Of a DNA stretch of 44,727 nt, positions 13,216 through 19,560 are shown piece after piece (position 1 is the stretch's first letter; each line of letters begins with the position of its first letter). Origin of the DNA: a virus; the IMG/VR virus record IMGVR_UViG_3300021433_000008, positions 1 through 44,727 of that record; one strand, given 5' to 3'. Below the pieces are notes generated by a model, which worked only from the letters and a program-made list of their open reading frames with translations, had not been told where the DNA came from and searched no databases. Both the position numbers and the translations under genes were made by a program.

Positions 13216-13455
13216 CTACCGCCCTTCAAAAGCTCCCGTCCAGGGTTCGTCCAAGTATCGCTTCTGCGCTAAGAACGTGCTGGCGTAGGGGATAAATTGC
13301 CCGTCTGCTTGGTGCCACTGCTCCGTTTGCTTCCAGAGCCGCAGCCCGCGCATCACTAAATCGTGGTGCAGCCTGCTCCTGTGCCAAATTTTCTCAGCTT
13401 TGAGCCTGCCAACTTTTCTTGGATACTCGCGCCAAAATGATTCAAAATCAACCAT
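13216..13455 (-). CDS. Replication loader/protein O-like C-terminal domain
   Basis: 79 residues from the ATG at 13455. FESFWREYPRKVGRLKAEKIW at the start and QFIPYASTFLAQKRYLDEPW at the end form the signature of the C-terminal part of phage replication initiators and helicase loaders. The usual N-terminal winged-helix part is missing, so the protein is either a minimal version or the remnant of a split gene. It directly follows the gene-free structured region 13456-14038, which would suit a replication origin or a split gene. Confidence 0.6.
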   Translation of the reverse strand: MVDFESFWREYPRKVGRLKAEKIWHRSRLHHDLVMRGLRLWKQTEQWHQADGQFIPYASTFLAQKRYLDEPWTGAFEGR

Positions 13456-14038
13456 GAGACACCCATTGCTTCCTACAGTCTCTCTTCTCCGTGGCAGTTG
13501 GCCTGTCTCCCGCAACTATTCCATCCCAAAGGCGTGTCAGGAGCTAAAAAGCTCGCTGGGCCAGTCTTATGGAAGCTTGAGACATCCCGACCAATGAGGA
13601 AAATAAATCGCGCGCAACCTGTAGTCGCAAAGTTGTCAGGGTAGGGACAGAGCCTGCTTTCGGATTGGACGCGACGGTCTTCTGCTGTTTCAAGGATGCT
13701 CGCCTTCCTTGCGTGGCACCCTCCGGCAGGGGCTTTTGTGGCCTTGTCCCGGAAGATTTCATCCTCAAGAAGGTTATCCGTCCGCAAGAGAAACGTGGAT
13801 TTGCCATCTTTAAGGCGAGCACCCATGAGGCAGCAGGAGACCAGCAAACTGCACTTGCACCCCTCATTGAAATGCGCAACGAGTGAGGGCCGTAGACGCC
13901 GGAAAGAAAATTGGAAAATGTCGGGGACATTTGCCGGTTGTCTTTCTACGAATTTGAGGGGCTGAGCACTGGCGACAACCGGCAAAGGCGATCTACCAGT
14001 AACGCCAGCCCCACGAATCCGCACCGCAAATCTATCTC
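13456..14038. other. 583-bp gene-free stretch inside the early operon
   Basis: All three minus frames are interrupted or read as unlikely protein, and no ORF has a good ribosome site. Every other gap in this operon is below 170 bases. The segment holds several long inverted complementary pairs (listed as the RNA candidate at 13690-14015) and a GAGCT/AGCTC hairpin at 13541-13554. A replication origin, a regulatory RNA or an intron-like element are the options. Confidence 0.7.
13690..14015 (-). ncRNA. Candidate structured RNA with H-type pseudoknot
   Basis: Read on the minus strand. Stem A pairs 13958-13964 with 14006-14012 (7 bp) and 13968-13972 with 13996-14000 (5 bp). Its loop contains GACAACCGGCAAA (13974-13986, plus sense), perfectly complementary over 13 bases to 13930-13942, giving a pseudoknot with loops of about 9, 1 and 15 bases. 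Downstream, 13694-13706 pairs with 13812-13824 (13 bp), enclosing 13708-13713 with 13783-13788 (6 bp) and 13718-13726 with 13749-13757 (9 bp). Five closing or internal pairs are G-U in the minus sense but A-C in the plus sense, which favours a minus-strand transcript. No known RNA family is recognised. Confidence 0.45.
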
Positions 14039-14254
14039 TCATTCTGTTTGCCTGTCAAGGGGTTTCTGCTCCAAACGCCTAGCTGCTTCTTTTTTCTCTA
14101 TCCGCTCACGTGCCATCTCTTCCCGAACCACTTCGTAGATGCCGAAAGCGTTCCAGCCGTGCATAGCCATCATCGTCACAATATCTCCGGGCACACGCAG
14201 GTGAACCTTGCGGTTCAGTTCGTGGCTGTAAAATTGTCTCTTCGCAAACATCAT
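14039..14254 (-). CDS. Hypothetical basic helical protein, 71 residues
   Basis: Two adjacent ATGs (14254 and 14251) follow an AAAGGAG site; the second has the better spacing. The segment LNRKVHLRVPGDIVTMMAMHGWN and a charged helix (REEMARERIEKKEAARR) suggest a small DNA-binding or ribbon-helix-like protein. No family is certain. It is the last gene before the gene-free structured stretch. Confidence 0.6.
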   Translation of the reverse strand: MMFAKRQFYSHELNRKVHLRVPGDIVTMMAMHGWNAFGIYEVVREEMARERIEKKEAARRLEQKPLDRQTE

Positions 14255-14433: not shown

Positions 14434-14591
14434 AATCTCCTCTCTCGCTTCAAGCAAAATCTTTTGTTGCGCTAGCCGCGATGCTGCCCGCTCTGAGGTT
14501 GTGTCAAAAGGCCCCCTCTACTGCCGCGCCCCCGCCAGCCGCTGCGCTTCACCCACCTCGACGTTCCGAGCGGCTCTTACCTAGCGGCTTC
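14434..14591 (-). pseudogene. Short coding-like frame interrupted by a TAG
   Basis: In one minus frame the codons read RAARNVEVGEAQRLAGARQ, then a TAG, then a helical segment ending SRLAQQKILLEAREEIK before a stop that overlaps the next gene's GTG. Both halves look protein-like but neither has a good start. TAG is used as a normal stop elsewhere in this genome, so a decayed gene is the simplest reading. Confidence 0.25.
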
Positions 14592-15015: not shown

Positions 15016-15041
15016 AGCCCTACCTAGCCTTTTTGGGTGCG

Positions 15042-15668
15042 CTAGCCATGCTGCTTCCTTTTCACTGCTTGCTGGGCGCAGAGCTTGCCCATGATGGCCG
15101 TCAGGCGGGTGCTGTGCTCGTCGAGCCGGGTGAAAATAGCTGCCAGCCGCTGGTTAATCGCCTCTACCTGCTCCGCTCTTGCCTTGAGAATCCCTGGCAG
15201 GGCGGCGGTAGCTTTGGCCTCGCGGTCCAGTAGTTCGTTTATCCCGGCCAGCAGCTCTTTGTATTGGGCTTCTCGGCGCTGGACGACTTCTACTCCATTT
15301 GCACCGATCGCGTCTATTGCCGCCAGCAATTTCACTTGGTTTGCGGCGATGGTTTCCATTTTGGAAATTGTCCGGCCATCGGCATTGTCGATTCGTTTCA
15401 CCAAGGCCAATTCCTGCTGTAAGTATGCCTGTCTGTGATTTTGAAGACCGACCGTCAACGTTTCCAGCTTCCCGAGCAGCAACTCCCTGAACCGCACGGT
15501 GTCTTTCTTGGCCTCCAGAAGCAAGTCCAGCTTTTCGTTGATCTTGCGAAGTGAGAGCATCTCCGTTGGCTGTTCAGGTTCTTTGTAGGGCTTCTGATTT
15601 TGGCTTCCGTGCACCGGGCAGGGCTGGCCGTGCCAGTAAACATCCCCGCAATGACAGGCTGCTTCCAT
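15042..15668 (-). CDS. Long coiled-coil protein with N-terminal Cys/His site
   Basis: 208 residues from the ATG at 15668. Residues 1-22 hold ACHCGDVYWHGQPCPVHG, a possible zinc site. From about residue 38 the protein is one long coiled coil, rich in Leu, Ala, Lys and Glu (LREAKKDTVRFRELLLGKLE-like heptads). Such proteins may bridge or scaffold nucleoprotein complexes. Function unknown. Confidence 0.55.
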   Translation of the reverse strand: MEAACHCGDVYWHGQPCPVHGSQNQKPYKEPEQPTEMLSLRKINEKLDLLLEAKKDTVRFRELLLGKLETLTVGLQNHRQAYLQQELALVKRIDNADGRTISKMETIAANQVKLLAAIDAIGANGVEVVQRREAQYKELLAGINELLDREAKATAALPGILKARAEQVEAINQRLAAIFTRLDEHSTRLTAIMGKLCAQQAVKRKQHG

Positions 15669-15698
15669 AGCCCCTCTCAATCCGATCCCGGCGCTAGC

Positions 15699-16280: not shown

Positions 16281-16350
16281 CCAGCCTCTCCTCGATTGAC
16301 CCCGGCGCTAGCCATGATTGATGCGGACGCCGAGGTGTTCCCAAAAACTC

Positions 16351-19486: not shown

Positions 19487-19560
19487 TTCAGCCTCTCCTC
19501 GGTTTTCTGTTGCGCTAGCTCGTAAACTACTGATCTTGCTGAGGTTTGTGCAAAACCTCT

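Follow-up and report, generated by a model that had tools for sequence, protein, structure and literature searches.

The element and its setting

What does a phage keep between two genes of an early operon when the intervening segment appears to encode no protein? The question arises in the 44,727-base soil phage record IMG/VR IMGVR_UViG_3300021433_000008 (positions 1 to 44,727, referred to here as the window), where such a segment separates a 71-aa gene from a short replication-initiator gene, here called rep, in the early operon of the minus strand. The original prediction described a new minus-strand RNA with an H-type pseudoknot, which might be regulatory or origin-linked, or else intron-like or a ribozyme. 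We find that a minus-strand structured RNA is very probably encoded here, and all of the helices named in that prediction can be located in the sequence; the limits that it set (13,690–14,015) are too short, since the element extends from about 14022 to 13456, both ends of the RNA, near 14022 and at the start of rep, being predicted (Table 1).

Table 1. Features of the element and its neighbours in the window.
Feature	Coordinates	Strand	Remarks
Sigma-70-like promoter (candidate)	14029..14058	-	TTGACA (14058-14053), 18-nt spacer, TAGATT (14034-14029)
Upstream gene, 71 aa, function unassigned	14039..14254	-	Relatives in L002 (72%) and L003
Whole structured RNA	13456..14022	-	Inferred limits: predicted start to rep start codon
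Stem A, 7+5 bp	13958..14012	-	14012-14006/13964-13958; 14000-13996/13972-13968
Pseudoknot arm 1, UUUGCCGGUUGUC	13974..13986	-	Within the loop of stem A
Pseudoknot arm 2, GACAACCGGCAAA	13930..13942	-	5' UAGAAA and 3' UGUCC, both largely conserved
Central helix module	13676..13842	-	Arms 13842-13812 and 13706-13676; tip 13811-13707
3' domain	13495..13641	-	CCUGAC..CCUCAUUGGUCRGG..CUGGCCC..GACACGCC..GGCCAACUG
Conserved stretch GUAGGAAGCAAUGGGUGU	13459..13476	-	Immediately 5' of the rep start
Downstream gene, short replication-type protein	13216..13455	-	MVDFESFWREYPRKVGR..; PHROG matches

The protein encoded downstream resembles the C-terminal part of replication-initiation and primosomal proteins (PHROG 270, E 1.6e-15; PHROG 9474; PHROG 9327). 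The segment itself gives no match at a useful score in Rfam 15, and BLASTN comparison of the segment and its relatives with annotated phages and plasmids leaves them unmatched. The suggestion of an intron-like element or a ribozyme is not borne out, as neither the window segment nor three of its relatives has a useful Rfam match and the element is intergenic rather than placed inside a gene; for group I and group II introns and known ribozymes nothing rises above the gathering score, and the matches below it are at chance level.

Relatives were sought in IMG/VR by means of the neighbouring proteins and of short conserved DNA patterns, which yielded six (L002, L004, L005, L137, L219 and, for the 5' part only, L139), a small set in which some members are closely related to each other. 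The upstream gene varies from phage to phage, and a replication-type gene lies directly downstream in every copy; in L002 and L219 this gene belongs to a separate small protein family that we take to be of replication type, with 96% identity between L002 and L219. Several pattern matches were discarded. The pattern GTAGATCGCCTT..TAGAAAG led to L135, a chance match within a coding gene, its only other match being the L005 contig; GCCTT..AGAAAG..CAAATGYCC occurs in 22 stretches and is real only in the L004 and L005 contigs; and 23 matches in genome contigs are apparently due to chance, none of them resembling the 3' domain by eye.

A protein gene, or hairpins that act at the level of the DNA, could also occupy such a segment, given that a 189-aa open frame (13473–14042, minus strand) spans the element and that, in the window alone, the fold is equally stable on either strand. 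However, the frame has no protein relatives in PHROG or Pfam, the substitutions that separate the window from L219 in the 3' domain fall evenly on its codon positions (11/46, 12/47 and 13/48), indels of 1 and 5 bases between the same two sequences would break any frame, and both the promoters and the alignment fold described below favour a sense RNA. We therefore regard this reading as highly improbable, and the original description of the segment as one without a gene appears to be right.

A covarying pseudoknot in the 5' domain

As a structured RNA, the window element folds with a z of -4.07 on the minus strand, compared with values of -1.75 to +1.99 in ten coding segments. At its 5' end, stem A is present as originally described, with counterparts that differ in sequence in L004, L005 and L139. 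The two 13-mer arms of the pseudoknot are 100% complementary and form the sole perfect 13-nt inverted repeat with a gap of 15–80 nt in the window, where 0.025 would be expected per window-sized dinucleotide Markov shuffle.

Contiguous pseudoknot pairs number 13 in the window, 12 in L004 and 11 in both L139 and L005, and among these four sequences 6 of 11 pairs have changed on both sides, with the flanks near UAGAAA and AAAUG conserved around the arms. When arms are swapped between phages they pair less well (3–10 pairs), the best partner of each being its own. It is this preservation of the pseudoknot by compensatory mutations that makes the RNA very probably real. At the equivalent place L002 and L219 have shorter pairings between a loop and downstream sequence, and the pseudoknot of L137, with 6 pairs, is uncertain.

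The 3' domain and the start of rep

The covariation among homologues by which the prediction was to be checked is found not only in the pseudoknot arms but also in the 3' domain, a stretch of 147 nt that consists of a small hairpin followed by a long interrupted hairpin and ends about 20 nt 5' of the ribosome-binding region of rep. Across three sequences, 11 of its 38 pairs have changed on both sides, values that none of 500 shuffles reaches, and 93% of the cells pair, which drops to 31–45% when the structure is slid; these controls are flattering, because the structure came from the same alignment. Independent support for the predicted domain is the behaviour of R1, a model of the three 3'-domain sequences, which recovers L005, absent from its building, with an E of 2e-9.

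The domain is not universal, since L139 has the pseudoknot domain only and a search with R1 gives no 3'-domain match in L004 or L002. Over 396 genomes of one phylum R1 produced one weak match (E 7e-4), which was rejected as repeat-rich hairpins beside an unrelated gene, and the leaders of L007 and L009, once considered as kin of the domain, were dropped, both being unmatched by R1 and the L007 leader having a fold z of -0.5.

Between the 3' domain and rep, the GUAGGAAGCAAUGGGUGU stretch is identical in L219 and, in the alignment, shared in part with L137 and L005; it is probably the ribosome-binding region of rep. This region may pair with a loop of the 3' domain (GACACgCC/GGGUGUC), a short complementarity that was spotted by eye.

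Strand and promoter

The original prediction assigned the RNA to the minus strand from positions that pair as G-U on that strand alone. The assignment is favoured by our analysis, and the argument for it proves selective and insufficient by itself: it leaves the strand unsettled, because the outer part of the long helix points the opposite way: three of its cells are A-C on the minus strand but G-U if the plus strand is taken as the RNA. Single-sequence folding is stable on both strands (z -3.8 for minus and -4.4 for plus; -4.07 and -4.12 on repetition). What favours the minus strand is the fold computed from the 3'-domain alignment, with a z of -9.1 in the sense and -6.2 in the antisense direction, together with the promoters.

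In the window, a sigma-70-like promoter places the predicted start of the transcript near 14022. A promoter-like sequence of the TTGAC type, with a score of at least 9.5 and no more than 110 nt from the pseudoknot stem, is present in six of the seven copies, the window included, and its control frequency is 4.8% of random segments; the test used a simple consensus, with pseudoknot stems placed by hand, and the six copies do not amount to six independent events because some are interrelated. Just 5' of the promoter-like sequence, L002 (1016–1075) and L219 (reverse complement, 425–480) share a conserved ACTCGCCACCTTAAAGTATTTTCTAGCTTTCGC stretch, possibly a regulatory site. A separate motif, T/GGCGCTAGC, lies near minus-strand early gene starts in the window (14468–14476, 15038–15046, 15690–15698, 16304–16312 and 19511–19519); its one-mismatch count over the whole window is not above chance, and only the clustering is odd.

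With the pseudoknot, the most widely kept part of the element, just downstream of the promoter-like sequence and several early genes following on the same strand, the RNA might act on RNA polymerase at the 5' end of the early transcript as a processive antitermination element, akin to the put RNAs of phage HK022. Put sites are about 70 nt long, and the element is far larger; nor were nearby minus-strand terminators identified that such an RNA would have to overcome. We consider this role very unlikely.

Exchangeable modules

The 13-bp helix 13694–13706/13812–13824, named in the original prediction, forms part of the longer central helix, whose 31-nt arms are 84% complementary. Judging from the sequences compared, this helix is a swappable module, with a motif (GCUG..AUGGRUG / CAUCCUU..CAGC) that is present as a single copy in both the window and L002 and as two copies in L219. 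One copy of the module in both L002 and L219 is tipped by a tRNA-like fold that is circularly permuted, with T arm, acceptor and D arm; ARAGORN calls it as a tRNA once the halves of the tip are rejoined by a 7-nt loop. The tip in the window differs and is not tRNA-like. In L002 the module with the permuted tip lies at 1439–1559, and in L219 (minus strand, 701–820 and 993–1113, reverse-complement coordinates) the duplicated modules have differing tips, one of them the permuted tRNA-like fold. A permuted-tRNA pattern for viral contigs was set aside because its gap range lets tandem tRNAs through as well.

L219 joins an L002-like 5' half to a window-like 3' domain (74.6% over 209 nt), an indication that the two parts belong to one modular RNA. 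With lengths that reach about 900 nt, a helix module that has been duplicated and the tRNA-like tip that L002 and L219 share, this modular architecture would suit a large ornate phage RNA of the GOLLD or ROOL kind, one that is processed out of its transcript, accumulates by itself and acts in trans, with a tRNA mimic among its exchangeable tips. GOLLD, too, combines a conserved 3' region with a variable 5' region and a linker that sometimes carries tRNAs (PMC12286853). Every copy of the element, however, is joined directly to a replication-type gene, with no terminator found in the window; the window has no tRNA genes; and the Rfam models of GOLLD and ROOL leave the window segment, L002, L219 and L005 unmatched up to an E of 10. 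A trans-acting RNA is thus possible but doubtful.

A candidate leader of the replication gene

The most constant features across the copies are the promoter-like sequence, the 5' pseudoknot and the replication-type gene downstream, and a leader that controls this gene in cis is the most economical, and most likely, reading of the three together, one that we hold tentatively and at close to an even chance. The support for a cis-acting leader comes from the covarying pseudoknot and 3' domain, the promoters and the constant replication-type neighbour. It comes also from continuity with rep, which in sequence terms is suggested by a gap of near zero between RNA and gene and by the lack of any minus-strand terminator found in the window, and from the absence of a coding sign together with fold z values of -4.1 in the window, -3.8 in L005, -8.8 in L219 and -6.9 in L002. 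What weakens it is that the RNA is bigger and more elaborate than most leaders, that L139 consists of the pseudoknot only and L004 and L002 have no 3'-domain match, that the leaders of L004 and L137 taken whole are not unusually stable (z -0.9 and -1.6), and that the homologues are few and partly interrelated.

Comparison of the sequences establishes the structure, its position and the promoter-like sequence, and favours the strand; transcription itself, the limits of the transcript, action in cis and regulation are what we infer in the following scheme. Transcription of the minus strand from the element's own promoter would yield a leader of about 570 nt on the replication-initiator mRNA, arranged as a long 5' stem that includes an H-type pseudoknot, an exchangeable helix module in the middle and a long interrupted hairpin at the 3' end. 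The pseudoknot would fold once synthesized and fix the 5' end of the mRNA; how the ribosome-binding region of rep is presented would be governed by the 3' domain. By these means the amount of initiator, and hence replication, could be controlled.

A role that is regulatory or origin-linked, as first proposed, is a possible one that fits the constant place before a replication gene. The origin-linked version holds that an RNA made from its own promoter helps to open or prime the origin, as plasmid RNA II does, and it draws on the same constant neighbour and on the fact that the gene is short in the other carriers and full length in L139 (1297–2246), where the pseudoknot domain alone precedes the initiator gene. 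Near this putative origin no iterons were found, and the GC skew has no clear turning point there, so that we judge this role unlikely. A more far-reaching proposal is that the modular RNA took over part of replication initiation and would act with a C-terminal-domain protein to mark the origin or prime it, because carriers other than L139 have a short replication protein that lacks the N-terminal half and retains the C-terminal-type domain, with the RNA in its place; we think this decidedly unlikely.

Comparison with known systems

Like GOLLD and ROOL, the element is phage-encoded, large, pseudoknotted and modular. Unlike them, it precedes a replication gene rather than lying beside tRNA islands, and its versions in L005 and L137 are much smaller; by these comparisons it is not a member of either family. 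Membership would also entail a separate RNA molecule that assembles into multimeric cages. The permuted tRNA-like fold on a long stem in L002 and L219 resembles YrlA, a bacterial Y RNA (RF02553), which is the best Rfam match of both (27.7 bits, E 0.0014, against a gathering score of 69) and is unmatched in the window segment; in contrast to YrlA, the fold is embedded in a far larger RNA. No Ro60/Rsr gene (PF05731) is present in the seven virus records, which are possibly fragments, and a partner may be encoded by the host.

In plasmids of the RepZ type, a pseudoknotted leader stands immediately upstream of the initiator gene. The element may be analogous in having a pseudoknotted leader directly 5' of such a gene, but it is far larger and is known here without an antisense RNA or a leader peptide. 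It represents an RNA family that is unmatched in Rfam 15, has a covariation-backed pseudoknot and is linked with a gene for phage replication. The family is assembled from interchangeable modules, and in two relatives one of these is a permuted tRNA mimic. As such, it offers a small and concrete system in which to study what phages use elaborate RNAs for, a question that is still open for GOLLD and ROOL.
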